Source: an uncultured Clostridia bacterium
Lineage (GTDB): Bacteria > Bacillota > Clostridia > Christensenellales > UBA1242
Length of the DNA stretch: 40,940 nt
Direction of reading: 5' to 3'
Assembly: GCA_947630405.1 (NCBI GenBank)
Contig: CANRHL010000006.1
Coordinates: forward strand, 1 to 40,940
The notes beneath the pieces are model-generated. The model did no database searches. It was given only the letters and a program-made list of their open reading frames with translations, and was not told the origin of the DNA. Shown piece after piece: positions 3,001-40,940 of this stretch. The translations under genes were made by a program, and so were the position numbers. Within the stretch, counting starts at the first letter, position 1. Each line of letters opens with the position of its first letter.

Positions 3001-6000
3001 TCAAACGACCTATCTATTGTGCCAGAATAGTTAGCTCTACCAGTAATTCTCACATAATATGTGCCGTGCTCTATTGGTGTGGTAGGGGTTGTATAACCCG
3101 CGTCGGAAAAATATGCTACAGTATAGTCTGTACCTTTAGCCAATGTTGCGTCTCTATCTAAATCTTTAATTGTTATATTAGCGTCAACGGCACTGCCCGT
3201 GTAGGTAACATCCCCCACGTTAATGCTTAGGTTGGTTATGCCCTTTGCCGTTATGTTATATGTTACTGTTCGGCTGCCAGTGTAGTTGCCGCCCTCTTTA
3301 CCTGTAATTGTAATAGTGTATTGTTTTACATTAGTGCCAGAAAGGTCGCCAGATAATGTGTAATCTACATCCACCTTTAATGTTTGAGATTTTCCTGCAA
3401 TTTTGTCGGTTACCACCACGGTTGGCGTGTAGGCACTGCCTGTATAGATTTTATTTGGAATTGCATCCACCGTAACTAAGGTGATGCTCTTTGCTAGAAT
3501 TGTAAATTCTTTCTCGGTTGCGCTATTAAAGTTGCCCAGACCTTCTATCTTAACAACGTATCCTCCCGCCGCAATTGGGCTAGCAGCCACTCCTTTTTGT
3601 AAGTAGCTTAGCTTATAGTCCGTGGTCTCTTTTAACGCCGTGCCTTTATATGTAATGGCTACGGTTGGCTTGTTTACTTCGCCATTATATGTTGGGTTGG
3701 TTATGCTTATGTTTATATCTCCATCCGTAATGGCGCGTGGAAGGATATCGAAATGTTCTGTTCTTGTGCCACTATAGTTGCCTTTACCGGATATTATTAG
3801 GTCGGCTTGTCCGGCTGCAGTGTTGTTTGCATACGATACGCCATAGTCTGTACTCGTCAGCGCCTTGCCGTTGTCTGTAATAGTGAATGTTACGTTGGTT
3901 ATTGCGCTGCCTGTGTAGGTGTAGGTTCCAGTTATTTTCACCACAACAGTGCTGCCGTCTATGTTCTTGCCCGTAATCTTAAATTGCGTGCGGATGTTCC
4001 CGTTATAGTTGCCCGTACCTGTTATAAGCACATAGTAGGTGCCATTGCCTAGCGGTGTTACTGTTGAGCCGCTATAGCTATTTGTCGAATAATACGCAAC
4101 ATTGTAGTCCGAGCCTTTGGCTAATGTAACACCCCTATCCTCGTCTGTAACCGTTAGGGTTGGCTCAATCGCGCTGCCCGTGTATATCATATCCGAAATG
4201 CTCACTTTTAGGCCGGATATGCTCTTCTGTGTTATACTAAAGCTCAACACTTTGCTGCCCGTGTAGTTGCCTTTACCTGTTATGGTCACCTTGCCGCCGG
4301 TGGAAACATTCGTGTTGGTGTCGTAGGTTATGTCGTAATCCTTGCCCGATGCCAATGTGCCAACACTATCTCGCACCGTTATGCTTGGCTTAATTGGGCT
4401 GCCCGTGTAAACTTGGCTTGGAATAGGGTTAGGCATAAACTCCACATCCCCCGCCGTGCCAACATCTTTCTTGGTAATCTCAAGTGTGAAAGATAATGTA
4501 CCTGTATAATTGTATGTTTTAGGAGTAATTGTAACCGAATGGCTGCCCGCATCCTTAAAGTTGCCCGTGGTAGACATCGAAAGTTGGTAAGGATCTATAA
4601 AATCAAATTCATTTGGCAATTCTGAAATGTTTTTACTAATACAGAAACCTTCTATTGCATCATATTCCAACCATGAGATATCAAAAGGTTGCACTATTGA
4701 GTAGTTACCAGAAGATGGCTGCTCAATAGCTGGCTGAGACGATTTGCCATCATATTCTATTGTTATTTTGTCTGTTTTCTCAACTGATGTCGGTATTCCT
4801 TCTGCGGATACATTCATCTTATATAATGATCCATTTAAGAACAACCATCCAGCAACCATTTTTGCATCATCGACAGTCGTACCCCTAACAACCTGAATCA
4901 GTATAGACATTAATTTAGTTTGTTTAATAGTAAAGCTTTTAGTTAATGTTCCGGTGTAATTGCCCGTTCCTGTTACTTTAACTTGTGCTTGCTCGGTTGA
5001 GCTAGCACTAGTGTTGTTGCTATATTCTACTTTATAATTTCCGCTTGGTAAAACTGCGCCACCTAGATTTACAGTTACGGCCGGCTGGGCAGTAACTCCG
5101 CTTACATAACGGTCGGTCATATGCCCTGGGCCATCACTCCACTTATCTGCCACAGTCAGTGTGCCGCCAGTTATGCTTTTTGCCGTAATGCTAAAGTCCT
5201 TATCCTGGCTGCCGGTAAAGTTAGGCCCAATGCCCTCAAAGTGCGCCGTGTAGTTGCCCACATTTATGCAGTCACTTGAGTTGCCGCCCTTAACACGATA
5301 GGTCACATTATAGTCCGTGCCAGCAGTAAGTTTCTGCCCGTTATATTTAACCGTTCCCTCTGGTTTATGCGATGCCCCATCGTAAACAAAGGTTGTGTTG
5401 GCAAGCGTTATGTCGGTATTGCCAATGTTTCCTGCCGTTATGGTGTAGGAAATGCTTGCCGAGCCAACATAGTTGCCCTGGCCTTCCACCACCACATAAT
5501 ATGTGCCAGCCGAAACACTCTTAACCTTGCTGCCGTCAACCACCGTGCCGTTTGCCGTATCTTTATGGTAGGTAACCTTGTAATCGTCCTTGCCCAACGT
5601 CTTGCTCTTGCCATTTAATGTTATGGTCACGCTCTGCACCGCCGCCTTATGCTCGGCACCATCGTAGGCAAAAGAGGTTTTATCTAGTGTTATTGTTGTT
5701 CCATTGGTTATGCTCTTTTGGCTAATATACCAATTCTTACTTAATGAGCCAGTGTAGTTGCCAATACCTGTTACGTTCACTGTTGCATTGCCCGAATTCG
5801 TGTTGCTAACATAACTTACGTTATAGTCCACACCCTTAGTTAGTTTGCCTAGGGTTTTATCTGTTATAACCACGTCCGGAGTAATGGCCTCGCCCGTGTA
5901 AGGTGTGTCCGCAATCTCGCCAATCGTAGCATTCGTGCCAAGGTCGCGCGGATTAATGGTATATGGAATAGACCTCGTTCCCGTGTAGTTTCCACGGCCC

Positions 6001-8450: not shown

Positions 8451-8501
8451 ATTAACTACCACCTTTTGCTTTTTATTTTCCCCTTGTGCATAGCATTATG
8501 T

Positions 8502-22572: not shown

Positions 22573-24171
22573 TTGACCAAGTTTCAAGCGCTGCTTAAAT
22601 TTGAATTAATGACAAACTCTTCGCGTTATAAGGACGAAGGCTTTTTCTTTCGCTTTAAAAAAGCCCTTGTAACAATTGTTGGCGGCGGTGCGCTTGCGTT
22701 AATTTTCCTTTATGCAATCAACATGGTTATGGGCGTGTTTATTGAGGCCGACCTGCAACATGAGTTTATTACAATATTTTCAGCATTAATGATGTTGTTG
22801 CACTTGATTGTTGGTGTTATAACCGCCACCAAAATTCTATTTACCAAGGTGGATTTATCCATTTTAAAACTGCCGGTTGGCGGGCTTGACATTTTCCTTG
22901 CTAAATTCTTATATGTATATATAAAGCAACTGGGCTTTGCGCTGCTTATTAGTTTGCCAACCTTTGTTCTTTTTGGAATTAAAACCATGCAAACCGCACT
23001 ATTTTACGTTTTGCTTTTGCCAAATGTTTTGTTTTTGCCAATTATTCCTGTTTTGTTGGCAGTTTTGTTATCTGTGCCTGTAATGTGGTTAATTCGTGTG
23101 TTTAAAAATAAATTTATAATTTTGCTTTTATTCTATACTCTACTTCTTGTTGCCGGATTTATGACATACATTTACGTTTTAAAATTTGTGTTAAACATTT
23201 TTGAATCGGGTCACTTTTCGTTTGATGCTGCCACAATTTATTCAATAAGGCAATTTTCAACTTATTTGTATTTGCCAATTTTGTTTAAAAATCTTTTGCT
23301 TTTGTATAACTATCTTAAAAGCCTAACAATTCTGCTAACGGCGGTTTTGGTGTTGGCAGCATTTGTTTATTTATTTGCAAAATATTCTTATTTCTCACTA
23401 TTAATTTCAAGCAAAAATCAGCGCGCTTTTTCTAAGAAAACAAAAATAAAATATCACAAACCAACCACGGCATTTGTGCAAAAGGAGTTTAAAACAATTT
23501 TCCGCTCAACTAACTACGCTTTCCAATATTTGACAATTGTTTTCACCACTCCGCTTATGGTTTACTTTTCAAGTGAAATTGTATCCAACATTAGCACGCC
23601 AACGCTTGGCTCAAGTGTGTTGCCGGGCATTGTTGTGCTAGTGCTAATTATGTTTTTAAGCATGGGGACATCCTTCTCTGCAACGTCAATAACAAGAGAG
23701 GGCAACAACTTCTTTTTAACAAAAATAATTCCGGTTAGTTACACAAAACAAATAACCGTTAAATTTTTAATATATCTATTAATTTCAATTCCAGCAATAT
23801 TTATCTCTTGCCTTGTGCTTGCAATTGCCAACTTTATAACCTACCCTGCCGCGCTTATTATTGCCTGCGCACTTTCGTTTGTTATAACGGGCAACATATC
23901 TAACTCAATCAGCATGGATATTAAGCGCCCACAATTTGAATATATTGAAAATGGCGAACTTTCTTCCAACACAAAAAACACAACGGCCTCAATCGGCATT
24001 GGGTTCACCATTTCGTTTATTATGGGCGTTGCGGGAATTGTGCTTTCGCTATTTGTTAGCGTGCCTTCAATGTATCTTGTTCTATATGGCTTTGGCGTGC
24101 CGTTTGCGCTTATTGAACTATTTAGGCTATTCCACAAACTAGAACGAAAATACGAAAGGATTGAGGTGTAG
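22573..24171 (+). CDS. ABC transporter permease (ABC-2-like, multi-TM)
   Basis: Multiple hydrophobic segments, TTG start 9 bp after the ATPase stop with AAGGAG SD. Confidence 0.85.
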   Translation: MTKFQALLKFELMTNSSRYKDEGFFFRFKKALVTIVGGGALALIFLYAINMVMGVFIEADLQHEFITIFSALMMLLHLIVGVITATKILFTKVDLSILKLPVGGLDIFLAKFLYVYIKQLGFALLISLPTFVLFGIKTMQTALFYVLLLPNVLFLPIIPVLLAVLLSVPVMWLIRVFKNKFIILLLFYTLLLVAGFMTYIYVLKFVLNIFESGHFSFDAATIYSIRQFSTYLYLPILFKNLLLLYNYLKSLTILLTAVLVLAAFVYLFAKYSYFSLLISSKNQRAFSKKTKIKYHKPTTAFVQKEFKTIFRSTNYAFQYLTIVFTTPLMVYFSSEIVSNISTPTLGSSVLPGIVVLVLIMFLSMGTSFSATSITREGNNFFLTKIIPVSYTKQITVKFLIYLLISIPAIFISCLVLAIANFITYPAALIIACALSFVITGNISNSISMDIKRPQFEYIENGELSSNTKNTTASIGIGFTISFIMGVAGIVLSLFVSVPSMYLVLYGFGVPFALIELFRLFHKLERKYERIEV

Positions 24172-24172
24172 C

Positions 24173-27100
24173 ATGAAAAAATTATTAGTCTTTTTAATGC
24201 TAGCCATTCCAATACTTGCAATTGTAATTGTAAAACTCACTTCAACAGTAGCGCTTGGTGATGTGTTTATTTCGGTGGAAAACATTGTTTTAAGTGAAGA
24301 TGATATTAAAGCAAAAGTTGGCGATAGCATCGACTTAAAATATGTAATTTACCCTGAATATGCCACCAATCAAGAAGTTATTTTCGCCAGCAGCGATGAA
24401 CAGGCAGCAATTGTTGATGAAAAGGGCCATGTTGATTTCGTTGGTACAGGCAGTGGCTACATTTCTGTTACCACTAAGGAAGGCAGCAAACACTCTTATT
24501 GTTCGTTCTACGTTAGCGATACAAAAGTGCATCGCGTGCAACTAAATTATGAATCCACCCGCCTGCACGTTGGTGGCGAAATGCTTATATCTGCCACTGT
24601 TTTGCCAGACGAGGCTTTAAATAAAGAGGTTGTTTTCACCTCAAGCAATGAAGAGATTGCCAAGGTTGAATTTGGTTCAGTTCACGGGCTAAAAGTTGGG
24701 CGTGTTACAATAACCGCAACATCGGTTGACGGCGGATATAGCGATTCGGTTGACCTAGATATTATTAATCCGGTAACTTCACTTTATGTTGCCAGTGAAA
24801 ATGAAACAATTGTAACGGCAAACAAAAATGAATTTGTTGAATATTATGTTCTTCCAGAAGATGCAACAATAAAACAAGTTCACTGTTCGCTAGATAATCC
24901 GGAAGTGGCAGAAATTACCGATGAAGGCTACATAACCTTTTTAAAACCGGGCGAAGTTAATATTACGCTAACCACCGAAGATGGCGGCTTTACAAAAACT
25001 GTTAAATACATCTACACGGCAAATTTCGTTTACGATATTATTGTAACCACGCCATCAATAACCATGAACATTGATGACGAGCCAATAATTATAGCCTACG
25101 AAACTCTGCCAGAAAATTGTGATGTGGAAATTGTTTCGGAAGATGAAAACATTGCCTATGTTCGTTCGGGCTGCTTGTATCCTGTTAAGGGTGGCAGCAC
25201 AACACTAACATTAAAAGCATATAAAAACGAAAACGAAGTTGTTATTAAAACAATTTTCGTCTACATTACTAGTCCGGCAACAGACATTGAAATTGAGGAT
25301 TCAATTACTGCAGAAAAAACATTTAAACTTAATCCAATTTCATTGCCAGAAGGCTCCACCAATAGCACATATTTTTATGAGATTATTAATGGAGTTGATT
25401 TTGCAACAATCACTCAAGATGGGCTTATAACATTTAACACTTTAACCGCGTCCACAATTAAAGTTCGAGTTTGGGCAAACGAAAATAAAAGCGTTTTTAA
25501 AGACGTTAACATAACCTACACCGCCGGCAAGCCATATTCGTTTGAACTGATAGATGATAAGTTAACTTTAAATTATAACGAAACTGCGCTAATTAATTAC
25601 AATATTTTGCCGGCAAGTGCAAGAGATATTCTCCCTAAACTAGAAATTGTTGAAGGTCAAGAGATAGTTGAAATTTTACCTGATGGCAGAATTCGTGCCA
25701 TTGCGGGCGGCAAAGCAAAAGTTAAAGTTAGCTTTAGTTTATATAATGGGCAAGTTGTTGAGGATTATTGCAACATTATCGTAATCCGCACCGCTGAGCA
25801 AATTGAAATTAATGTGGATTTAGATTATTATGCCAATCAAAATCAATATGTAACCTCTAAATCGGCAGTGCAATTCTCTGGCACTGTTTTGCCAGCCGAC
25901 ACTACGGATAAAAACATTACATGGTCGGTTAGCGATAGCAACATTGCCTTTATTGATAACAACACGCTAAGGTTTAACCAAGTTGGTGCGGTTACCCTAA
26001 CTGCAACCTCTAATAAGGCAACCAAATCAATTGAAATTTATTATGCAGGTTCCAACCCTGTTTATGCCGAAGTTCAAGCTGAAATTGGCGGCGTTAAACA
26101 AGACATGCCAACCAGCATAAATGTTGAAGAAACATTCAATGTTTCAATTTCAAAATTAATTCCTAGCTATGACACTTTGCCAGAACTCTATTTGGAAGTT
26201 GAAAATGCAAAAACTTCTTCTCCGCTTGGCAAGGTGCTTACAATTGAAGGCAACACTGTTAGTGCGGTTGCTGGCGGAACTGCCACCCTAGTTGTGCGCA
26301 TTTCAAACTCAATTAAAATAAACTATTCAATAACTGTTGTGCGTCAGCCAAAAAGCATAACTGTAATGCAAGCAAATAGCAAAATAACCACAAGTTCAAT
26401 TAAACTTATTGCCGAAATTTTGCCAATTGATACAACAAACAAAAATGTTAAATTTGTTGTAAATAATCCATCTATTGCAACCGTGGATGGCACAACACTA
26501 ACCTTTAACACCAACGGCATTGCAAACATAACCGCAATTTCACTTGCTGACGAACGCGTTAGATGCAATTTCACAATTGAAAAAATTGAAAAAGACACTA
26601 TTCTTGCTTCGGTGCAACAAAATTCAATAAGTTTTAACAAGGGTGAGCTATTAACCTTTAATGACGTTGAAAACTTTGCAATTTCTGTTGAAAGTGAAAC
26701 CCCAACTATTGCGGGCGAAAAAGTTGTTAGAGTGGAAAATGAAAGATATTTGCGCGCAGTATCAAGCGGGCAAGCAAAAATAAAAGTTACAACTTCAACT
26801 GGCAGTTATGAAATTGAAATTTCGGTTAAACAACCTGTTGAAAATGTAATTTTAAGTTCTAATATCGATTTCTATAACGATGAATATGTTGTGGCAAGCC
26901 GTGTAGTATCACTTAACTTTAACGTTTTGCCAGCCCACGCATCTAATAAAGGCGTTACGGCAAGCATTAAACTTACAGGTGGCGAGCGAATTGCAACAAT
27001 AAACAACAATAGAATAACCTTTATTAAAGCGGGCGTGGTAACACTTGAAATTAAATCGGACGATGGCAACTATGCTTCCATGATTAACTTGCGTTACACG

Positions 27101-30100
27101 GGCGGCGTTGCGGTTGATGCCGAGTTAAATGTTGGCAGCCGCATTGTTATGAACATTGGCGATAAAGTTACAATTGATGTTAAAAAATGGATTCCAAACG
27201 ATGTTGTTGACCCTCGCTTCCTGTTCAAAGAAATAATTTCAAGTTCGGGCAAAAAGATTATTGACATCAACGATAAAACCCGCACCATCACGGCAGTTGA
27301 GGGTGGCGAGGCAAGGCTTATTCTTGAACTTTCTAGCGGCATAATTAAAGAAATTGAAATTGTGTGCATAAACAAAGTTAAAGATATTAATGTAGAGCAA
27401 AATGTTTTAATTTCGGGTGCATCTTACACCATTGAAGCCGAAGTTGAGCCAAGCAATGCAACAAACTCCGCTCTTGAATTTGAACTTGCACCAACTGATA
27501 TTGCAACAATTAAAGAAAACGTGGTAACCTTTAAAAAGGCAGGCACAATAACTGTTTATGTTCGCTCAGTTGATGACCCTAATGTTCAAAAGGCGGTTAC
27601 AATAACCAGCACGTTAGGATATTTGCATCACCTTGAATTGAACGAAACCAACATCACAATTTTAAAAGGCGAAATGCACCGAATTTTTGTGGATGGTTAC
27701 CCTACCGATGCAAAGAACAACCAAATTAAATATAAAATTTTAACTGAATCTGCTTACGACAAAAAATCTAAAGTTATAACCTTAAGCGATGATGGTCAAA
27801 TTGAAGCCCTGTGCGCAGGCACTGCCACGGTTAGAGTTTACGCGTTAGACTATTATAACAACGAAGTTTATGCCGATTGCATAGTAACCGTGCGTTCACC
27901 GCTAATGTCAATTGATGTTCAGTTTGAAAGCACACTTGAAAATTATCAAAACAAAACCACCTTTATAACAAGCAAAAATGTTGTTCCGTTTAAAATTGTT
28001 TATGAGCCAATTGATGCCGAAATAGAAAATTATTCTTATAACATCAGTAACGATAGCGTTGCAAAAATTGAAGATGGCAAAATAATTTTCTTAAAAACTG
28101 ACCGAGTTTCAATAACCTTTATTTGCACCGATTTTGAAACAACAAAATCAATAACCTATTCATTCTATTATGTCGGCGACCGTTTGCACGAGGCAACCTT
28201 AAACAAAACAGGTTTTGAAAATAATGTTATAAACAAATTGGCGGGCGAAACTGTTACATTTAGTTTATCAAAAGCCGTTCCAAGCGACAACACTAATTTA
28301 GAGTTTACAATTACTAACATTGCCGAAAAGCGTAACGACCCAAATAAACAAGTTGCTACATTTAAAAATGGCGTGCTATATGCCGAAAATGGCGGAAGCT
28401 TTAGTTTCACATTATGGGTTAACGGTTATAAACTAGAAAATTTAACTCTTGTTGTAACTAAGAACGCAGTAGGCATTGAAGTTGTTGATGGCGACAATTT
28501 CTATGTTGGAATTCCATCCTTCTCAATTGACGCACACGTTTTGGAAACGGATGCAAGCCAAACAAAACTTGGATATCGCGTTAAAGAAACGGGCATTGCA
28601 TCAGTTAACCAAAATGGCGATGTAACCTTTAATAAATTCGGTGTTTGCCATGTGGAAATTTACATTGTTGAAATTCCAAGCATTACAAAAACAATAACAA
28701 TAACTTACACCAAAGAAGTGCAAAGCATTGTGTTCAATCAAATGCGAGATAATATTTACACAACCGATTATTTCGATTTTGGAATTTCTTCCGTTCCGCT
28801 AGACGCTGAGAAGTTTAGTGTTGATGTAACAATCGACAATGAAGAGATTGCGTCGTTAGTAAAGAAAGATGATATCTATCGATTAATTCCTATTAAAAGC
28901 GGAAAAGTAACTATCACCGCAACAGTGGTGGGCAAAGATATTAAGGCCACAAAAACAATTGAAATCTTTGACAAAATTTCCGATATTAAACTTTCACTAG
29001 ATAAAACGACCGATGCTCACGGTCATGGCGAATATAGAATTTTTGGCAACACATTCTTTAACGAGAAAAACGAGTTAATTAACACTTACAAAATGGGCGT
29101 AACGATTATACCTGCAGATTTATCCACAAGTTTGCTTGAATGGTCCTCAAGTAATGAACAAATTGCAACGGTTGATGCTTCTGGCGTGGTAACATTCCTA
29201 ACCGCAGGCAAAGTAACCATCACTGTTAAGCAAAAAGTGCCTTACCCTGGTGCGCCTGTTGCAATTGATAGTTACGAATTTAACATAGTTGAAGGCATAA
29301 ATGTATCTAGCCCTGCTCAGTTCAACCTCGCCAACGCAAAACTAACCGAAATTAACAAGTCAAGAACGGAAAATCTTGCCTCCATGGTGTTAAATGCAGA
29401 CATTTTAATTGATAAAGGCATTAACTCTCTACTTCTTAACTATAGCATTTATGGTAATGGATATATGTTAAACTTTTCTAACTCAATTAGCACGTGGGAA
29501 CACTTTATTATAAGAAGAAACAATGTTGTAATTGATAACGCAGTGTTGCGGGCAGTTGCAATTTCTAGCGGGCAAGAATTGCGCAATGCTGGCGTGGTGC
29601 TGATGATTGAGAACTGCAACGGCATACTTGTTTACAACACAATAATTGAACATGGCGAAACCGGCATAAGGTTGCAGTGTGCACAAGTTGATGTTGTTGG
29701 CTGCATAATAAGAAATTGCTTGTCGGCCGGCATAAAAGTTGCGCGAAGTGCTACCGTTGCCTGCAACCTACGAGTTAAAGATACCGTGTTCACATCAAGT
29801 TATTGCGGCATTCTTTACACCGCCGATAAATTTGCAACACCAAACCTTAATACTGTAACGTTGGAAGGCGAAGTGTGGTTCTACAACTATTCAACTGTCG
29901 ACCAACTTGAAAAGGGGTTGGATTTAAACAAAATTTTAAGAGATGCAGGATTATCCCTCGCTGCAAATGAAATTATTAGCCAACTAGAAAAAATTGTTGC
30001 CGACAAAGGCGGAAGTTACGCTTGCGAATATAACGGCGAAAAATATTATAACTTTGGCATTCTTCAATTCAGTGCCGATATTCGTATTGCCGGCATAACA

Positions 30101-30316
30101 TTTGATAGTTTTGGCATTTTGAATAAAACTGCATTAAATTCAACCTGCAATTATACGATTTTTGATTGTGTGGGTGCTTTGGATATGACTTTAACCACCG
30201 TTCCTATAAAATGTAATATTCTTTCAATTCAAGCCAAAGGTGCATTTATTAAGCCGGGCGAAAGTTATGTTGATAATCCAAATTTTTGGAAAATAAAACA
30301 ACCTTGTAGATTTTAA
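24173..30316 (+). CDS. Giant exoprotein with tandem bacterial Ig-like (Big_2-type) domains and C-terminal parallel beta-helix-like region
   Basis: N-terminal TM/signal, repeated motifs (VFTSSNEEIAKVE...GRVTITATS; ITWSVSDSNIAFIDNNTLRFNQVGAVTLTATS; LEWSSSNEQIATVDASGVVTFLTAGKVTIT). C-terminal region GNGYMLNF..IIRRNNVVIDNAVLR..IENCNGILVYNTIIEHGETGIRLQCAQVDVVGCIIRNC. ATG at 24173 preferred over TTG 24161. Confidence 0.9.
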   Translation: MKKLLVFLMLAIPILAIVIVKLTSTVALGDVFISVENIVLSEDDIKAKVGDSIDLKYVIYPEYATNQEVIFASSDEQAAIVDEKGHVDFVGTGSGYISVTTKEGSKHSYCSFYVSDTKVHRVQLNYESTRLHVGGEMLISATVLPDEALNKEVVFTSSNEEIAKVEFGSVHGLKVGRVTITATSVDGGYSDSVDLDIINPVTSLYVASENETIVTANKNEFVEYYVLPEDATIKQVHCSLDNPEVAEITDEGYITFLKPGEVNITLTTEDGGFTKTVKYIYTANFVYDIIVTTPSITMNIDDEPIIIAYETLPENCDVEIVSEDENIAYVRSGCLYPVKGGSTTLTLKAYKNENEVVIKTIFVYITSPATDIEIEDSITAEKTFKLNPISLPEGSTNSTYFYEIINGVDFATITQDGLITFNTLTASTIKVRVWANENKSVFKDVNITYTAGKPYSFELIDDKLTLNYNETALINYNILPASARDILPKLEIVEGQEIVEILPDGRIRAIAGGKAKVKVSFSLYNGQVVEDYCNIIVIRTAEQIEINVDLDYYANQNQYVTSKSAVQFSGTVLPADTTDKNITWSVSDSNIAFIDNNTLRFNQVGAVTLTATSNKATKSIEIYYAGSNPVYAEVQAEIGGVKQDMPTSINVEETFNVSISKLIPSYDTLPELYLEVENAKTSSPLGKVLTIEGNTVSAVAGGTATLVVRISNSIKINYSITVVRQPKSITVMQANSKITTSSIKLIAEILPIDTTNKNVKFVVNNPSIATVDGTTLTFNTNGIANITAISLADERVRCNFTIEKIEKDTILASVQQNSISFNKGELLTFNDVENFAISVESETPTIAGEKVVRVENERYLRAVSSGQAKIKVTTSTGSYEIEISVKQPVENVILSSNIDFYNDEYVVASRVVSLNFNVLPAHASNKGVTASIKLTGGERIATINNNRITFIKAGVVTLEIKSDDGNYASMINLRYTGGVAVDAELNVGSRIVMNIGDKVTIDVKKWIPNDVVDPRFLFKEIISSSGKKIIDINDKTRTITAVEGGEARLILELSSGIIKEIEIVCINKVKDINVEQNVLISGASYTIEAEVEPSNATNSALEFELAPTDIATIKENVVTFKKAGTITVYVRSVDDPNVQKAVTITSTLGYLHHLELNETNITILKGEMHRIFVDGYPTDAKNNQIKYKILTESAYDKKSKVITLSDDGQIEALCAGTATVRVYALDYYNNEVYADCIVTVRSPLMSIDVQFESTLENYQNKTTFITSKNVVPFKIVYEPIDAEIENYSYNISNDSVAKIEDGKIIFLKTDRVSITFICTDFETTKSITYSFYYVGDRLHEATLNKTGFENNVINKLAGETVTFSLSKAVPSDNTNLEFTITNIAEKRNDPNKQVATFKNGVLYAENGGSFSFTLWVNGYKLENLTLVVTKNAVGIEVVDGDNFYVGIPSFSIDAHVLETDASQTKLGYRVKETGIASVNQNGDVTFNKFGVCHVEIYIVEIPSITKTITITYTKEVQSIVFNQMRDNIYTTDYFDFGISSVPLDAEKFSVDVTIDNEEIASLVKKDDIYRLIPIKSGKVTITATVVGKDIKATKTIEIFDKISDIKLSLDKTTDAHGHGEYRIFGNTFFNEKNELINTYKMGVTIIPADLSTSLLEWSSSNEQIATVDASGVVTFLTAGKVTITVKQKVPYPGAPVAIDSYEFNIVEGINVSSPAQFNLANAKLTEINKSRTENLASMVLNADILIDKGINSLLLNYSIYGNGYMLNFSNSISTWEHFIIRRNNVVIDNAVLRAVAISSGQELRNAGVVLMIENCNGILVYNTIIEHGETGIRLQCAQVDVVGCIIRNCLSAGIKVARSATVACNLRVKDTVFTSSYCGILYTADKFATPNLNTVTLEGEVWFYNYSTVDQLEKGLDLNKILRDAGLSLAANEIISQLEKIVADKGGSYACEYNGEKYYNFGILQFSADIRIAGITFDSFGILNKTALNSTCNYTIFDCVGALDMTLTTVPIKCNILSIQAKGAFIKPGESYVDNPNFWKIKQPCRF

Positions 30317-30328
30317 AAAAGGAGAAAT

Positions 30329-33300
30329 ATGGCAAAACATATTAACAAAATCTTAATAGTTTTAGTTGTGTTAGCATGTGCTTGCCTATTTTTCCCTATT
30401 AAAAATTTAACATCAGAGGCGGTGGCAATTGACGGAGTTTCGGGCAACAAAATTGTGTTTGTTGGCCTAACGGGCAAAACCCCATTCCATTATTTTGTTG
30501 ACGATAACGATAAAAGCACTCTTATTAACGCCACAACAAAAGACACCGCTAAAAAATATTATTCAATTGTGCCTTCCGGCAGGGGCGATAGTTCGGGTTA
30601 TGGCGAATTTATGCCAACAAACGATATGTATTCATTTATTGAAAAAGGTATATTATATGCCACCGCCAGCGCACAAGTTGTTTGCGGAAATGGCACTCAA
30701 ATGACCCTAACGATTTCTGCCGGCGAACATCAACAACAAATAATTGGCACGGGCAACCTTTCCACCCCAATGCTTAAAATTGAAAATATTAGCGACATAT
30801 TAAAAATTTCATTTAACGCAACCAGCCCATCGGGCAGATGCGATTATGTTATGGATGAGCCAACAATTCATCTATACACGATTATTGACTCAGTAACCCT
30901 TAACACAGAAAATCAAACTGTATCCCCTGGTCAGCTTGTTAAGATAGATGCTTATAACGATGTAACCAGCATGTCCGGTCCATCGGGCAACTTTAAGAGT
31001 TTTTCTAAAATTAACCACCAAATTGAATTTCTATTTAAGGCAGAAGATAGCACTGAATTTGTTACTAGCCTAGATTATGTTGAAGTGGTTGGCTACAACC
31101 TTTACATCTTGCCAACGGCACCTAGCACGACTGTAACCTTTAAAGTGCGTTGTAAGAAAAACTCATTTTCGGATGAAAAAATTGAATCCACAAATACGGT
31201 AACACTAACTATCGCCACCGAAAAAGTTAATGTGCAAGTTTTAACCGATTTTAAAACCTCGCCACCGGCAAAATTCGTTGGTGAAGGCAGTTATGGTGTT
31301 GGCAAGGGGCTAAATCTAATTCAACGGCCAAACGCAGACTTTAAATTTGTTGGTTGGTATGTGGATGGCGAATATAAGGGAAATAGCAACACTCTGCATT
31401 TAAACGCCACCTTTGGCCAACAAATTTATGCAAAATATATTAAGAGCATTTCGGTTGAAAGCATAACCGTTGCCAGCAAAAAATATGACGGAACAACCTC
31501 TATTGATTTAGAAAATGTTTTGGTTAAATTTAGCGGCATAGAACCTGGCCACGATGTTGGTTTGGCCGGTGTAACCTATGCGTACGATTCTCCTAACGCA
31601 AAGAAAAATAACACAATTACTCCAACTGTATCGAGCTTAACACTAACGGGCGAAAATGCAGATATCTACACATTAAAAACTCAAGTTTTGCCAAGCATAA
31701 CGGGCGAAATTTTAAAAAGAGATGCCTACATTACTCCAGAAGCCAACCAAAAAGAATATGGCTATGGCGACCCTAACTTTGCATTTACGGCAAGCAATCT
31801 TGTTGCTAATGAAAGCCTTTCTGGCGGCATATCCCGTGAGGAAGGCGAGGCCATTTCTAAATACAACTTTACCTTGGGCGATTTAAACGATAAAAACCCA
31901 AACTACACTTTCACTTTAATTAATAACGGCGCTCAATTTGAAATAACTCAGCGAACATTGTTCCTCACAAACGTGTCGGTTAGCGAAAAGGTTTATGACG
32001 GCACAACCAGTGCCAGAATAACGGCCGAGTTAAACAACGTTTTCAACAACGAAGATGTGTCGGTTCAAATTGTTGGCAATTATAATGATAAGAATGTTGG
32101 AAATAATAAGCAAGTTACTCTTGTTAGCACCAATTTAATTGGTCGGGATAAAAACAACTATGTTTTGTCAAAATACACTGAAACGCTTTATGGCTCTATT
32201 TCGCCTCGTCCAGTAACGGTTAAGGCGGAAAATTACACTTGTGTTTATGGCGACAAAATTACACTAACTTACACTGCCAATTTATTGGCGGGCGACACGC
32301 TTGATGGCGAACTTGCAATCGATAACACAAACGCGGGCAACCACGAAATTAAACTTGGCACGCTCAATAACCCTAACTATGAAATTTCGTTTGAAAGTGC
32401 AACCTGCACAATAAAAAAACGCACCGCCAAGGTTGTTGCCGATGCGCAAACTAAGCCTTATGGCGAAAGTGATCCTGAACTAACATATTCTGCCACCAAT
32501 CTTGTTATAGGCGATAGTTTTAGTGGCGAACTAAAACGTGAAGGTGGCGAAGATGTTGGCAGTTACAAAATTAATGTGGGCAACTTATATAATCAAAACT
32601 ATGAAATTGACTTTAAAGAAAATTATTTAGAAATTAAAAAGCGCAAAATTGATGCGTTAATCACGTTTTTAAATAAAGTTTACGATGGCACAAAAAATGT
32701 CGAATATAGTGTAACCTATATCGAAAACATTAAAAATGAAAATTTTGAGTTGGAAGTATCCGCCGAATTGTCCGATTCAAATTGTGGCATTGTTGATGTA
32801 AATTTAAAATCCAGCCAAGTTGTTGGCAACAATTGGGGGAACTATCAATTTACCTACCTACCTCAAAACACGCAAATAGAAATTTCAAAACGCACGGCCA
32901 ATGTGTTTGTGGATAGTTCATCAAAAACTTATGGCGATGTGGACCCAGCATTCTCTTACACAACAACTGGCCTAGTTGGCGATGATGTATTAGATATTAC
33001 AATCTCTCGAGTTGCAGGCGAAGATGTTAATAAATATGAATTTTATTTACCTGATCAAGAGGCTGCAAACATTAGAAATTATAAGATTGAACTTGCCGAA
33101 GGCTTCTTCGAAATTGTGCCAAAAGTAATTCGCCTTTCAATTGCAACTCAATCCAAAACGTTTGGCGACCCTAATCCAAAAATTGAATTTTCTCTTATGG
33201 ACGAATTGTGTTTTAACGACACTGCCGAAAGCATTTTAACAGGCAAAATCACGCGTGAAGTTGGCGAAAGAGTTGCAATTTATGAATATATTGTTTCCAC

Positions 33301-35476
33301 CGTTTCAAATTCTAAAAACTACACATTTGTTAACGGGGAAGATAGTCATTTCTTAATCAACAAAAGGCCGGTTACTGTTATAATTTCGGATGCAACCAAA
33401 GTTTACGGCAGTGAAGACCCAACCTACGAATATGAAGTGGAAAACGACATTGAAGGCGAGCGCCTTAGCGCTCAAATTGTGCGCAACTTGGGCGAAAATG
33501 TTGGTTCTTACACTCTTATGTGCAACACCGAACAAGATTCGCCTTACATAATTACATATAAATCGGCAAATTTAATTATAACCCCTTATCACCTCTCAAT
33601 TGGTGCGGAGAATAAAGTTAAAATTTATGGCAACGAAGACCCTGCATTCAGCATTGCAATAACATCGGGCTATTTAAAAAATAATGATAGATTGGAAAAC
33701 ATTGTAAGCGGCACATTAATTCGTGATGAAGGCGAAGAAGCTAACATGTTTTACACAATCCGCGCAAACGACATTTCACTTGGCAACAATTACATAATTG
33801 ACGAGTTCAAAACAGGCACTCTTGAAATTATTAAGCGCAACATCACAATTGCGGCAAATTACACAACCAAAACTTATGGCGAGCCAGACCCAGAAATTAA
33901 ATATACGCTAATAGATAGTTCGCTTGCCTTTAATGATGCAATTCAAGGCGTGCTATCTCGTAAGCCGGGCGCAAATGTGGATAGTTACGAAATAACTTTG
34001 GGCAGCATTTCCTTAAATGATAATTACAACATTAATTTCATTTCCAACACTTTTGAAATTACACAAAAGCAAATTGAAATTGTGCCAATTTCTGCCTACA
34101 AATTCTATGGCGAGTTAGATGCCGAAATTAAATACACCATTGTTGGCAATTTAATTGATGGCGATACCCTACAAGGCAACCTTTATCGAGATAAAGATAA
34201 TTCATTAATTGAGAAAGCGGGCAAATATAAAATTCACTGCGATTTATCTAACCACAACTACGACATCGTTTTTGGCGAGTGGTATTTTGAAATTAAACCA
34301 AGAGAAATTGAAATAACGGCAGATAGTTATGAAATTACCTATGGAGAAACTGAGCCTAAATTAACTTATAAAGTAACGGCGGGTGAAATTTTAAATGGCG
34401 ATAAAATTCAAGGCACGTTAACGAAAAAAGCGGGCATTAACGCCGGCGTTTACGATATTGTAAGCACACTTTATTTGGGCAGAAACTATAGCATTAATTA
34501 CATTAAAGGCACGGTTACAATTAAGCCAAAAGAACTTGTTATTAAAACAACCAACTACACAAAAACCTATGGTCAGCCAGACCCTAACTTTAATTATACA
34601 ATTGTTGAAGGTACATTGATTAATAACGATATCCTCTACGGTGCAGTTTCGCGTGAAAAGGGCGAGGATGTTGGCAGTTATAATCTCGTTGCCAGCGTGT
34701 ATAACGCCAACTATCATGTAACATTGCAACCAGCCACATTAACAATTCAAAAGAAGGATGTTTACATGGTAACCGGCGTTTACAATAAAGTGTTCGATGG
34801 CACAACGGTTGCCTATTTAAAGAACCCTTACATATCTGGAATTATTGATGACGTTTATTTAAGTTATGCGCGCGATAACAGTGCCGAATTTGCTAGTTCA
34901 TCTGTTGGTGTAAACATTCCAGTTAGCGTACATGATATAACCATTGTTGGCATGGGGGCACAAAACTATAATTTAATTTTGCCTAACAATTTAACGGCAG
35001 ATATAACGTTAAAAGAAATCGTCAACCACAATGTTAGTGTTTCGGCAAAAGACCCTGTTTTATATGAGGATTGCGCACTTAATGTTTCTTTAGAAAATGT
35101 AATGCAAAATACTAAAATTCAAAATCACAACGTAGTGCTTAAATATAACATTTGGATTGAAGGCGGAAGTGAAGGCGGTGAGTTAGATAGCGTTTATACA
35201 ATTAAATTTGATGTGCCAAACAAAATATCCAGCAGGAACAACATTTATGTTTATCAAAAGTTGGAGGATGGGAATTTATTGCTAATTCAATGTCAAAAAC
35301 TTGCCAACGGAAGTTTGGTTGTTACATCATCTAATTTGGGCGAATTTTACATAACGGTTGAGGACGAAACTTGGCTGGATTATGCAACATATATATCGCT
35401 AAACATCATTGCAATCTTGTTAATTATCATCTGTTTTGTGGTTATTGTAAAATATCGAAATAAAAACAAAAAATAA
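30329..35476 (+). CDS. Giant surface protein with MBG and YDG repeats, C-terminal TM anchor
   Basis: Signal peptide; ~4 YDG-like units (KKYDGTTSIDL, KVYDGTTSARI, KVYDGTKNVEY, KVFDGTTVAYL) and ~11 MBG-like units (TYGEPDPEIKYT, TYGQPDPNFNYT, FGDPNPKIEF, etc.); C-terminal SLNIIAILLIIICFVVIVKYRNKNKK; no LPXTG seen. AAGGAG SD. Confidence 0.92.
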   Translation: MAKHINKILIVLVVLACACLFFPIKNLTSEAVAIDGVSGNKIVFVGLTGKTPFHYFVDDNDKSTLINATTKDTAKKYYSIVPSGRGDSSGYGEFMPTNDMYSFIEKGILYATASAQVVCGNGTQMTLTISAGEHQQQIIGTGNLSTPMLKIENISDILKISFNATSPSGRCDYVMDEPTIHLYTIIDSVTLNTENQTVSPGQLVKIDAYNDVTSMSGPSGNFKSFSKINHQIEFLFKAEDSTEFVTSLDYVEVVGYNLYILPTAPSTTVTFKVRCKKNSFSDEKIESTNTVTLTIATEKVNVQVLTDFKTSPPAKFVGEGSYGVGKGLNLIQRPNADFKFVGWYVDGEYKGNSNTLHLNATFGQQIYAKYIKSISVESITVASKKYDGTTSIDLENVLVKFSGIEPGHDVGLAGVTYAYDSPNAKKNNTITPTVSSLTLTGENADIYTLKTQVLPSITGEILKRDAYITPEANQKEYGYGDPNFAFTASNLVANESLSGGISREEGEAISKYNFTLGDLNDKNPNYTFTLINNGAQFEITQRTLFLTNVSVSEKVYDGTTSARITAELNNVFNNEDVSVQIVGNYNDKNVGNNKQVTLVSTNLIGRDKNNYVLSKYTETLYGSISPRPVTVKAENYTCVYGDKITLTYTANLLAGDTLDGELAIDNTNAGNHEIKLGTLNNPNYEISFESATCTIKKRTAKVVADAQTKPYGESDPELTYSATNLVIGDSFSGELKREGGEDVGSYKINVGNLYNQNYEIDFKENYLEIKKRKIDALITFLNKVYDGTKNVEYSVTYIENIKNENFELEVSAELSDSNCGIVDVNLKSSQVVGNNWGNYQFTYLPQNTQIEISKRTANVFVDSSSKTYGDVDPAFSYTTTGLVGDDVLDITISRVAGEDVNKYEFYLPDQEAANIRNYKIELAEGFFEIVPKVIRLSIATQSKTFGDPNPKIEFSLMDELCFNDTAESILTGKITREVGERVAIYEYIVSTVSNSKNYTFVNGEDSHFLINKRPVTVIISDATKVYGSEDPTYEYEVENDIEGERLSAQIVRNLGENVGSYTLMCNTEQDSPYIITYKSANLIITPYHLSIGAENKVKIYGNEDPAFSIAITSGYLKNNDRLENIVSGTLIRDEGEEANMFYTIRANDISLGNNYIIDEFKTGTLEIIKRNITIAANYTTKTYGEPDPEIKYTLIDSSLAFNDAIQGVLSRKPGANVDSYEITLGSISLNDNYNINFISNTFEITQKQIEIVPISAYKFYGELDAEIKYTIVGNLIDGDTLQGNLYRDKDNSLIEKAGKYKIHCDLSNHNYDIVFGEWYFEIKPREIEITADSYEITYGETEPKLTYKVTAGEILNGDKIQGTLTKKAGINAGVYDIVSTLYLGRNYSINYIKGTVTIKPKELVIKTTNYTKTYGQPDPNFNYTIVEGTLINNDILYGAVSREKGEDVGSYNLVASVYNANYHVTLQPATLTIQKKDVYMVTGVYNKVFDGTTVAYLKNPYISGIIDDVYLSYARDNSAEFASSSVGVNIPVSVHDITIVGMGAQNYNLILPNNLTADITLKEIVNHNVSVSAKDPVLYEDCALNVSLENVMQNTKIQNHNVVLKYNIWIEGGSEGGELDSVYTIKFDVPNKISSRNNIYVYQKLEDGNLLLIQCQKLANGSLVVTSSNLGEFYITVEDETWLDYATYISLNIIAILLIIICFVVIVKYRNKNKK

Positions 35477-35511: not shown

Positions 35512-35538
35512 AAAAACTCTTCGTAATGAAGAGTTTTT
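35512..35538. terminator. Bidirectional terminator
   Basis: AAAAACTCTTC-GTAAT-GAAGAGTTTTT. Confidence 0.85.
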
Positions 35539-36589
35539 AATTTTCCAAATTTGTTTCTTCGGTTTTAAGCAATTTTTCACGTAAGATATTCATTGCTTTT
35601 TGTATGTTCGCACTCTTTACAAATTGCATGTCTGAAAATTCAATTTTATCTGAGTTATCGTCTTTAAGTTTTAATTGGTATTTTTTCAATTCTTCAATAG
35701 CGCTTTTATCATATCTATCAACAGTGGAACAAATTGTGCAATAAACCGTTCCTTCTCCGTTTGCATTATAAACAGGAATAAAATAACATTCATCGCCAGA
35801 TTCTTTATATCCCCAAAACGCGTTGCCCACCGCCTCAACATTATCATCAAAGCAGCCATCAAAAAACGCCAAATTGTCCGTTATGTTTTCGCACGAAAGT
35901 ATTGAGCAATCACTATATAAGTAATTAATAAAATCCGCAAAATAATCTTTGGAGGCTTCCGCACCGCTTTCAAAATCTGCACCGGTTAAATAATGCAATT
36001 CAAACAAATTCCCCTCTTCGTTTTCAAACAAAATTGAGAGCAAATATTTATCATATTCGTTACTGCCCTCAAGCATGTTGCACGGAATAAGTGAAAACGA
36101 AATAAGTTTATCAATCTGCCCCACTTCTGTTTCGCATCGAGAAATGGCATCTTCTTCAATGTTGCCAAAAAAGCTTTCAGTTAAAACCTTTATTTCGGCA
36201 TCGGTAATTGTGTCAGTTATAATTTGGCTATCATCTCCAAAACTAAAATCGTTGCCGTTAGCATCAAACACATCTTCCGCAGTGTGTGGGGAGCCGCTTG
36301 GCAATGTGCCATTATATTCGTTTGCTAACATTTTGTTATACGCTAAATAGCCAATAAGGCCACCAGCAAGCACAATTGAAAGGCATTTTAAAAGTGTGCG
36401 CGGCTTTTTCGAAGTTGGCAATTTTTTATTCATCTTTTTTCTTTGCTTTTTTGCGTGTTTGTTTGTCCACACATCATCTGGGAAAAAACCGCCAACCTCA
36501 ATCTGTTGGTTTTGTTCGTTTTCTGGTTCACTTTCAACACCCTGTTGATTATTAATCAATTCTATGGCGGTTTCTACTTTTTGTTTCAT
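35537..36589 (-). CDS. Hypothetical single-TM protein with acidic ectodomain
   Basis: ORF with basic stretch KKQRKKMNKKLPTSKKPRTLLK then TM CLSIVLAGGLIGYLAYNKML. ATG 36589 preferred; minus-strand TTGACA (36626-36621)-17-TAAATA (36603-36598). Confidence 0.75.
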   Translation of the reverse strand: MKQKVETAIELINNQQGVESEPENEQNQQIEVGGFFPDDVWTNKHAKKQRKKMNKKLPTSKKPRTLLKCLSIVLAGGLIGYLAYNKMLANEYNGTLPSGSPHTAEDVFDANGNDFSFGDDSQIITDTITDAEIKVLTESFFGNIEEDAISRCETEVGQIDKLISFSLIPCNMLEGSNEYDKYLLSILFENEEGNLFELHYLTGADFESGAEASKDYFADFINYLYSDCSILSCENITDNLAFFDGCFDDNVEAVGNAFWGYKESGDECYFIPVYNANGEGTVYCTICSTVDRYDKSAIEELKKYQLKLKDDNSDKIEFSDMQFVKSANIQKAMNILREKLLKTEETNLEN

Positions 36590-36838
36590 ACATATATTAT
36601 TTACCACAATTTTGAGCTTTTGTCAATATGGTTTTGAAATTTTTTTGTTTTTTTGTAGAACCTGTGACAAAACAAAAAATTATTAAAATAAAAAATTAAA
36701 ATAGATAGCAACAATAAATATTGCAAATTATTTTATATTTTCTTAACATCTTAATATTATTAATTTTTATATTTTTTTATTTATTTAATTAAATTTTTTC
36801 ATTTTATATTTTAATTTTTTAATAATTTTTAGTTAAAT

Positions 36839-36904
36839 TTTTCCACAGTTTGTCCACAACATATCCACAAGTTATCCACATACTTTTCCACCAAATGTGG
36901 ATAA
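36839..36904. other. oriC: Candidate replication origin (oriC): DnaA-box cluster
   Basis: Box starts at 36839 TTTTCCACA, 36850 TTGTCCACA, 36861 ATATCCACA, 36872 TTATCCACA, 36884 TTTTCCACC, plus inverted TGTGGATAA 36896-36904; AT-rich flanks. Confidence 0.8.
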
Positions 36905-36985: not shown

Positions 36986-37966
36986 ATGAAAAAATATAAT
37001 TTAGAAAAAATAACGGCCGCTAAATCAATCTGTTTAATTGCTCATATCGACCCAGATGTAGATGCAATTTGTAGCATGGTGGTTTTTAAAAAATTTTTAA
37101 TGGACACATTTAATAAAAATAAAATTGATATTTTTGCTGAATGTGATAGCTTGCCAAAAGATTATTTACCATTGCTAGACGGCTGCAAATTTAATCCAAA
37201 GCCGGGTAAATACGATTGTGCAATTATAATGGATTGCCCCAATAGAGATAGAATTGGCATATATCAGCCGCTTTACAATAACGCAAAAATTAAGGGAGTG
37301 ATTGACCACCACGCCACTAACGATTTGCACCCCGACCTTAGAATTGTTGAAATTGTAAGTTCCACTTGCGAAATTTTATACTCTATATTTAAGAAATATA
37401 AATACACTTTAAATGCAAAAATTTGTTCTCGCCTTTATGCCGGATTAATTACCGACACCAACAATTTTTCTGTAGGCGCAATAACAAAAAGAAGTTTTGA
37501 ATTGGCTAGCGCATGCATAAAACACATAAATCCAGTTAATATTTATGATTACTTCTTTTTAAATATCTCATTAAAAAGCCGTATTTTATTTGCTAAGGCA
37601 ATAAACAACATTAATTCATATGAAAATGGCAAAATATTAATTTCTCATATTTCCAAAATAGAGAGCAAAAAACTTAATCTTGTAGATAGTGATTATACAG
37701 GAATAAGTAACCAAATTGCAGGAACAGAAGGCAACAAAATCATTTGCTTTATTCATCCTAAGGGCAATAATTATTATGTCAGCATGCGAGCAAAACCACC
37801 ATATAGTGTTGCAGAAATTGCCAAAAAGCATGGCGGGGGCGGACATGTTGGCGCAGCGGCATATTTATCTAGCGCCAAACCCGAAATTATTGAGCAAGAA
37901 ATCTTAAAAGAATTAACGAAAGAATTACACTCAAAAAAAGAAGGGTCAGAAAGCAATTTATTCTAA
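36986..37966 (+). CDS. DHH/DHHA1 phosphoesterase, NrnA-like (oligoribonuclease/PAP phosphatase family)
   Basis: AHIDPDVDAICS, IMDCPNRDRIG, GVIDHHATND, LYAGLITDTNNF, GGGGHVGAAAY. Confidence 0.87.
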   Translation: MKKYNLEKITAAKSICLIAHIDPDVDAICSMVVFKKFLMDTFNKNKIDIFAECDSLPKDYLPLLDGCKFNPKPGKYDCAIIMDCPNRDRIGIYQPLYNNAKIKGVIDHHATNDLHPDLRIVEIVSSTCEILYSIFKKYKYTLNAKICSRLYAGLITDTNNFSVGAITKRSFELASACIKHINPVNIYDYFFLNISLKSRILFAKAINNINSYENGKILISHISKIESKKLNLVDSDYTGISNQIAGTEGNKIICFIHPKGNNYYVSMRAKPPYSVAEIAKKHGGGGHVGAAAYLSSAKPEIIEQEILKELTKELHSKKEGSESNLF

Positions 37967-38086: not shown

Positions 38087-38974
38087 TTATTTTAAGATTA
38101 TATCATAAATTCTATCTAAATCATCTTGAGTGTAATAGTCTATGTAAATTCTTCCCTTTTTGTTGTTACCAATTAGGTTGACCTTTGTTCCCAATTTCCT
38201 TTGAAGTTGATTTACAAATTCTTTTAGTTCATCGGTTGTGGTTGGTTTCGCCTTTTTCTTTTTGCCTTTGCCTAAATAACTTTCAACCTCTCGTTCCAAA
38301 TCTCTAACAGTAAGTTTATCTTTTGCCACCTTTTTAGCCAACATCAATTGTGTTGCGTAGTCACTTACGGCCACCAGCACCTTAGCATGTCCGAATGAAA
38401 CTTTGCCTTTTTCAACAAGTTCAATAACTTCTGGATATAAGGTTAAAATTCTAATAGAATTGGCAATGGCAGAACGGGATTTACCCAACCTTTCAGCCGT
38501 TTTCTCTTGTGTTAAGCCATATTCATCCATCAGCCTTTTAATTCCTTTTGCCATTTCAATAGGGTTTAAATCCTCTCTTTGCAAGTTTTCAATTAAGGCA
38601 ATTTCGGCAATTTGTTTGTTGGTGTATTTCTTAATTATAACATTTACCTTATCTAGCCCCGCCAATTTGCATGCACGGTACCTTCTTTCGCCTGCAATAA
38701 TCATGTAACCCTTATCGGTTTCGTTAACAATAAGTGGTTGAATAAGGCCGTGAATTTTAATACTCTCTGCCAATTCATTTAAGGCTTCACTATCAAAACT
38801 TTTTCTTGGCTGATTAGGGTTTGCATAAATTTTATTTATGTCCACCATCACATCCTCTTTTGAAGTTTCCACTGTTGCTGGTTTTTTACCAGCAGATTTC
38901 ATTTCAGTTTCCTCAATTTCTCTATCATACGATTTTAATAGGCTATCAAGCCCCCTACCCAATCCTGGTTTCAT
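38087..38974 (-). CDS. parB: Chromosome-partitioning protein ParB/Spo0J
   Basis: MKPGLGRGLDSLL, INKIYANPNQPRKSFDSEALNELAESIKIHGLIQPLIV, GERRYRACKLAGL, ENLQREDLNPIE. AGGAGG before ATG 38974. Confidence 0.96.
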   Translation of the reverse strand: MKPGLGRGLDSLLKSYDREIEETEMKSAGKKPATVETSKEDVMVDINKIYANPNQPRKSFDSEALNELAESIKIHGLIQPLIVNETDKGYMIIAGERRYRACKLAGLDKVNVIIKKYTNKQIAEIALIENLQREDLNPIEMAKGIKRLMDEYGLTQEKTAERLGKSRSAIANSIRILTLYPEVIELVEKGKVSFGHAKVLVAVSDYATQLMLAKKVAKDKLTVRDLEREVESYLGKGKKKKAKPTTTDELKEFVNQLQRKLGTKVNLIGNNKKGRIYIDYYTQDDLDRIYDIILK

Positions 38975-38985
38975 CTTTCCTCCTT

Positions 38986-39001
38986 TGTTCCACATGGAAC
39001 A
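38986..39001. promoter_or_regulatory. parS: parS-like site
   Basis: TGTTCCACATGGAACA, near match to TGTTNCACGTGAAACA. Confidence 0.8.
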
Positions 39002-39056
39002 TTTAACTAAATTATAATTTAAAAACTTTAAGTTGTCAAACAAATTAAAATAAAAA

Positions 39057-39072
39057 AGTTCCACATGGAACA
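39057..39072. promoter_or_regulatory. parS: parS-like site (second copy)
   Basis: AGTTCCACATGGAACA, 15/16 identical to first copy. Confidence 0.75.
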
Positions 39073-39079
39073 TTTTTTA

Positions 39080-39841
39080 TTATTGTTTTTTCAAAAACTC
39101 CTCACATAAAGCCCGATATGCTTGCGCACCTTTGCTTTTGTCGTCATATAAAATGATAGGTTTGCCGTGACTAGGACTTTCGGCCAGTCTGATGTTTCGC
39201 GGAATAACGGTATCGTAAACCTTTGGCCCAAAATATTTTCTTATTTCCTCAGCCACCTGAGCAACAAGGTTACTACGGTTATCTTTCATAGTCAGCAACA
39301 CCCCTTCAATTTCTATTTGAGGATTAAGATGTTTTTTTATAAGCCTAATAGTGTTCATAAGTTGTCCTAAGCCAACCAAAGCAAAATACTCACATTGAAT
39401 AGGGATCATAACATTGTCGGTGGCCGTTAAGGCATTAACCGTGAGCAAGCCCAAAGATGGAGGACAATCGATAAATACATAATCGTACTTGGTTTTTAGG
39501 TCTTTTAATGCCTCTTTTAGCACATATTCGCGCTTGTCCATATAAACCAAATCTACCTCTGCGCCCGCCAAATCTACGTTGCTTGGGACAACATCCAAAC
39601 CCTTTAAAACGCTAGGGTAAACGGCCTCTTCCAGCTTAATGTCGCCTAGCAAAACATCGTAAACCGAGTCTTTGTCCTTATCAACATCCACGCCAAGGCT
39701 GGTGCAAGCGTTACCTTGTGGGTCCATATCAATTAAAAGCACACGTTTTCCCTTATCTGCCAAATAACTTGCAAGGTTCACACATGTGGTGGTTTTGCCA
39801 ACGCCGCCCTTTTGGTTGGCAACTGATATAACTTTTACCAT
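39080..39841 (-). CDS. parA: Chromosome-partitioning ATPase ParA/Soj
   Basis: ISVANQKGGVGKTTTCVNLASYLA, DMDPQGNACTSLG, FIDCPPSLGLLTVNAL; AGGAG SD. Confidence 0.97.
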   Translation of the reverse strand: MVKVISVANQKGGVGKTTTCVNLASYLADKGKRVLLIDMDPQGNACTSLGVDVDKDKDSVYDVLLGDIKLEEAVYPSVLKGLDVVPSNVDLAGAEVDLVYMDKREYVLKEALKDLKTKYDYVFIDCPPSLGLLTVNALTATDNVMIPIQCEYFALVGLGQLMNTIRLIKKHLNPQIEIEGVLLTMKDNRSNLVAQVAEEIRKYFGPKVYDTVIPRNIRLAESPSHGKPIILYDDKSKGAQAYRALCEEFLKKQ

Positions 39842-40703: not shown

Positions 40704-40716
40704 CCTTTCTTTTTAT
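40683..40716. terminator. Bidirectional terminator between convergent genes
   Basis: AAAAAGAAAGG/CCTTTCTTTTT. Confidence 0.75.
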
Positions 40717-40940
40717 TTTATTGGGTCGGTTTTGGGTTTGTTTTGTGCGCGCGGATAAACCTTCGGCGTTGGCTTAATTTTTTTAATAACAATAATGTTG
40801 CGCTCGCCCGTATCATCTGGCAAATTATATTGAAGCGTTTTTTCAAATTTTCCGCCTAAAATTTCAATTGATTTTTTTGCCTCAAGCAATTCATCATTAA
40901 AATTATTCCCCTTATAAGCAAGCACAACTCCACCAACTTT
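40713..40940 (-). CDS. rsmG: 16S rRNA (guanine-N7) methyltransferase RsmG/GidB, C-terminal part (start beyond window)
   Basis: VLAYKGNNFNDELLEAKKSIEILGGKFEKTLQYNLPDDTGERNIIVIKKIKPTPKVYPRAQNKPKTDPI matches the RsmG C-terminal pattern; frame open to window edge; synteny with parAB. Confidence 0.85.
   Translation of the reverse strand, partial: KVGGVVLAYKGNNFNDELLEAKKSIEILGGKFEKTLQYNLPDDTGERNIIVIKKIKPTPKVYPRAQNKPKTDPIK

Follow-up and report, generated by a model that had tools for sequence, protein, structure and literature searches.

The window analysed here, a contig (C6) of 40,940 nucleotides taken in its entirety, carries a real array of DnaA boxes that is conserved across its host genus, Candidatus Onthoplasma. 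These are gut bacteria of the Christensenellales with reduced genomes of ~1 Mb, and the genus has been assigned to the family UBA1242 of that order (PMC12306168). The array is probably not the chromosomal origin of replication, oriC. On sequence comparison, it is best read as an oriC1-like site near oriC, displaced or re-evolved, at which DnaA would be captured.

The array consists of five tandem boxes on the forward strand followed by one inverted box (36839..36904), and was defined by a box scan, a simulation and the recurrence of the same frame in relatives. Numbered relative to the inverted box, TTTTCCACA (36839..36847, frame -57), TTGTCCACA (36850..36858, frame -46) and ATATCCACA (36861..36869, frame -35) each have one mismatch, TTATCCACA (36872..36880, frame -24) is perfect, and TTTTCCACC (36884..36892, frame -12) has two mismatches at a position where relatives usually have TTATCCACA. 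The inverted box (36896..36904, reverse strand) is also a perfect TTATCCACA, and no element of the array is better conserved. The original prediction had placed all six boxes correctly and had recognised the exact 11-bp steps between the first four; the two steps after these measure 12 bp (11, 11, 11, 12 and 12 bp in order). Six boxes with at most two mismatches fall within 66 bp, against no more than three when the window was simulated 200 times with an order-3 Markov model, so the cluster far exceeds chance, as a cluster at oriC would. In the 949-kb draft genome, the pattern TCCACA-N5-TCCACA-N5-TCCACA is unique to the array, with two overlapping matches there and none for a reversed control. 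No Rfam families were found in the window.

A box cluster in the same frame was identified in 32 of 34 Onthoplasma genomes, at a single place in each, and was missing in the other two (G001 and G011). The relatives found through DnaA include Candidatus Onthoplasma faecipullorum and Ca. O. faecigallinarum. An alignment anchored on the convergent box pair, comprising 31 of the 32 cluster-bearing genomes, yielded a common frame of boxes at -46, -35, -24, -12 and 0 (the inverted box), with an extra box at -67 in most relatives and at -57 in G012 and the window's own genome (G000). The outer boxes deviate in some members, and the divergent genomes G003, G022 and G027 retain mainly the core. Information content reaches 1.3–1.9 bits per base between -30 and +10 and is about 0.24–0.5 in the outer flanks, which are not conserved among Onthoplasma genomes; by the same measure the AT-rich left flank in the window (36608..36838), faced by no array box, is non-conserved. 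The AT-rich setting and ~11-bp pitch had been described correctly, and conservation of the phasing, proposed at the time as a check, holds in the relatives' alignment, where the pitch has been kept in evolution. In ten genomes from other genera of the same family, the core motif of the array was not found at ≤3 mismatches, so the array is not essential family-wide.

To the right of the array lie, in order, a gene for an NrnA-like DHH/DHHA1 phosphoesterase that falls under the NCBIfam cut-off for NrnA (36986..37966, forward strand), parB (38087..39073, reverse strand), parA (39080..39841, reverse strand), a small exporter-like gene and the C-terminal part of rsmG (40713..40940, reverse strand), which corresponds to residues 151–224 of a relative. 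The left neighbour (35537..36607, reverse strand) encodes a predicted protein of unknown family at a place where relatives mostly have a CwlD-like amidase. A search of the DHH protein against the genome contigs gave no match. The remainder of RsmG is on another contig, C1, whose left end opens with residues 1–143 (C1:2-430) and so adjoins the right end of C6, making these two contigs neighbours. Contig C1 also carries dnaA and dnaN at about 60–63 kb, and the encoded DnaA is a full TIGR00362 member. The original prediction was therefore accurate in stating that dnaA is absent from the window and that parAB and rsmG are nearby, with parB, parA and the rsmG end all inside 4.1 kb. For parS, the window's genome has two relaxed matches only (38986 and 39057), whereas relatives feature clusters of exact sites between parB and parA (e.g. 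G019 C1:70677-71336). The window also contains three giant open frames (3-8495, reverse strand; 24161-30316 and 30329-35476, forward strand) of >2800, 2051 and 1715 aa, respectively, whose repeat-rich, surface-protein-like sequence is unusual for a ~1 Mb genome.

The usual place of the array is between the CwlD-like amidase gene and the nrnA-like gene, 128–360 bp ahead of the latter in most genomes and with the two genes divergent. DnaA is known to act as a transcription factor (PMC4447404), and with cwlD and nrnA usually so close the array may yet have a transcriptional role, as a DnaA-responsive control region of one or both of the flanking genes, the nrnA-like gene and its divergent neighbour. 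We consider this unlikely, given how the array behaves where the neighbourhood is altered. It is intact in G018, where the adjacent nrnA-like gene is without its middle part (around 71295-71902 of contig C6 in that genome), it lies beside tmk in G009 with the nrnA-like gene elsewhere, and in G033 the two are separated by an inserted 303-aa reading frame. In G032, the array is found past the amidase gene and lies upstream of dnaA by 2.1 kb, and its left neighbour varies between genomes, the window included. Some of these altered neighbourhoods could be effects of draft assembly, but all point the same way. Promoter-like matches were not commoner than in shuffles. The array is thus kept despite breakage or relocation of the nrnA-like gene, or an insert between the two, and is not simply that gene's operator; an operator as its sole role was rejected on G018, G009, G033 and G032.

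The original interpretation was that the array is a candidate oriC, where DnaA would load on the boxes and an AT-rich flank would melt. The dense boxes, AT-rich surroundings, nearby parAB, parS-like sites and rsmG, and the occurrence of the core layout at dnaA in other families all speak for this. However, a ~180-bp block just upstream of dnaN is conserved across the genus and is likely to be the real oriC, of the oriC2 type. In the window's own genome this block occupies C1:61647-61834 (L003 5648-5835), ~66 kb from the array. It opens with TTTTTGATAGTGATTTTTTTATTA, followed by the box pair TGTGGAAAAGTGGATAA, a tandem pair directed at a conserved AT-rich stretch; no regular DnaA-trio run was recognised there by eye. 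The block keeps to dnaN whether dnaA is divergent, co-directional (G029 and G002, where the block lies between the two genes) or separated from dnaN by 5 kb (G032, L240 7781-16369). The boxes of the array, in contrast, are all directed inwards, and none points outwards into the AT-rich flank (cf. PMC6669920). The arrangement of a basal unwinding system, with a box or boxes facing an adjacent AT-rich unwinding element, is therefore seen at the dnaN block and not at the array, and the proposal that the AT-rich flanks serve as a DNA unwinding element was not supported.

GC skew gave a second means of comparing the two loci. Gene strand dominates raw cumulative skew, which is noisy, so it was dropped for strand-corrected fourfold-site GC skew, modelled with a term for gene strand and a single switch point, and the block and the array were compared in this model. 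The dnaN block was favoured as the switch in 12 of 13 genomes, with a summed log-likelihood difference of 127. Bootstrap intervals were clear of zero for G006, G033, G029, G030, G020, G025 and G018, and in G006, G030, G033 and G029 the best switch was no more than about 1 kb away from the block. The interval for G019 just touches zero, while G014, G021, G031, G002 and the window's own genome are not informative by themselves. In the own genome the preference for the dnaN block is weak (+2.9, bootstrap -1.9 to 8.6), a point on the side of the array as oriC, so the case against it rests on the genus. The skew check that had been proposed for the array thus places the switch (minimum) elsewhere in relatives, beside dnaN, at a second and longer origin-like conserved element. 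Together with the inward-facing boxes, the unconserved flanks and a block that remains at dnaN though dnaA has moved, this makes it highly improbable that the array is oriC: the phased DnaA-box array in an AT-rich stretch stands, but its reading as an origin of replication is not supported.

A relationship to part of an origin was suggested by comparisons within the order. Just upstream of dnaA, the place of oriC1 in Bacillota, eleven genomes of other families carry a pair of boxes and an inverted one at 12-bp pitch, on the rnpA side of dnaA where rnpA is in view. The array has this same ++- layout and pitch in its core, which it shares with the oriC1 (incA/incB type) of bipartite Bacillota origins. 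Unlike oriC1, it does not lie directly upstream of dnaA, G032 being the nearest case; its usual place is at cwlD/nrnA, with tens of kb between it and the unwinding block. Its distance from that block ranges from 10 to 66 kb, on either side and in either orientation: 10–38 kb in twelve relatives and about 66 kb in the own genome, with one further relative in which the array is about 2 kb from dnaA. No dense box cluster was present in the dnaA regions of two genomes of the same family. Since the core motif occurs at dnaA in other families and is missing in sister genera, the array may be either a displaced oriC1 or a convergent gain.

This shared core raises the possibility that the array is the remote half of a bipartite origin, where bound DnaA would contact the dnaN unwinding block through a DNA loop, a contact needed for initiation. 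Origins with two box clusters are found in B. subtilis and C. difficile (PMC5295017, PMC7561715), and few boxes lie directly upstream of dnaA in G029 and G002, which have kept the co-directional dnaA-dnaN arrangement. Such a role is decidedly unlikely, as the side, orientation and distance of the array all vary, and the spacings tested in B. subtilis were far shorter at 132–462 bp (PMC6669920). A split of the bipartite origin, in which an oriC1-like loading half would still be needed and act remotely from tens of kb away, is at best similarly doubtful. A further proposal is that the array alters the nucleotide state of DnaA, as E. coli datA does through ATP hydrolysis or DARS through reactivation. 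Its close, oriented boxes include a convergent pair, two HU/IHF-family proteins are encoded in the genome, and no match to YabA was found in the draft, but such activities are not established in Bacillota (PMC5295017) and we regard this as very unlikely.

With no skew switch and no facing unwinding element at the array, DnaA capture near oriC is the best supported reading, and we assign a probability of about 0.5 to the array being a putative capture site outside the origin. Its sequence, its conservation, its independence from neighbouring genes and a skew switch elsewhere were all observed; from these we infer DnaA binding, co-operativity, an effect on initiation and possible descent from oriC1. 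The strong boxes at 36872 and 36896 (inverted) are predicted to anchor DnaA, which would spread co-operatively onto the weaker boxes that lie in helical phase between these anchors and behind them, to build a short convergent oligomer. A comparable process is known from E. coli oriC, whose weak sites, spaced 2 bp apart, fill co-operatively starting at strong anchors (PMC6727663). Both arrays combine nine-base sites with 2-bp gaps, giving an 11-bp pitch, and strong sites that anchor weaker ones, but the E. coli arrays are parts of an origin, whereas the skew switch in Onthoplasma lies away from the array. As a single-copy element close to oriC, the array would be duplicated early, soon after each initiation, and could then hold surplus DnaA off oriC and so damp re-initiation, a principle that also underlies the DnaA-box clusters of B. 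subtilis and titration in E. coli. ParA is present in the own genome, and its B. subtilis counterpart Soj regulates DnaA (PMC5295017). Against capture, six array sites may be few beside the other boxes of the chromosome, of which 44 in the draft genome are perfect. Single-box density near dnaA was also not clearly raised (3.2–4.0 vs 2.8–3.6 per 10 kb on four contigs), so the array was seen but a general titration region was not.

Clusters of DnaA boxes away from the origin have been studied in depth in E. coli and to a lesser degree in B. subtilis. Precedents are described in PMC5295017 and PMC12371093, and the array is probably a variant of this known class with a fixed genus-wide frame. As reviewed in PMC5295017, removal of all six oriC-proximal DnaA-box clusters (DBCs) of B. 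subtilis led to early initiation (Okumura 2012), and these clusters have been proposed to capture DnaA near oriC. The Onthoplasma array is similarly a box cluster outside but near oriC on a Bacillota chromosome; it differs in that there is one array per genome with its frame fixed box by box throughout the genus. Titration of DnaA has been reported in general for E. coli, and the array resembles datA, DARS and the high-density box region near oriC (PMC12371093) as predicted non-origin DnaA-binding DNA with a conserved place and a titration logic, but it has no homology to these and a different box layout.

These results advise caution in calling oriC by box density alone, as the densest cluster lay off the skew switch on most contigs examined. 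The value of the array as a test case lies in its being free of gene context yet usually within tens of kb of oriC. A single array that keeps a base-by-base frame in about 30 species of a lineage with reduced genomes provides a natural test of titration versus remote-origin models.
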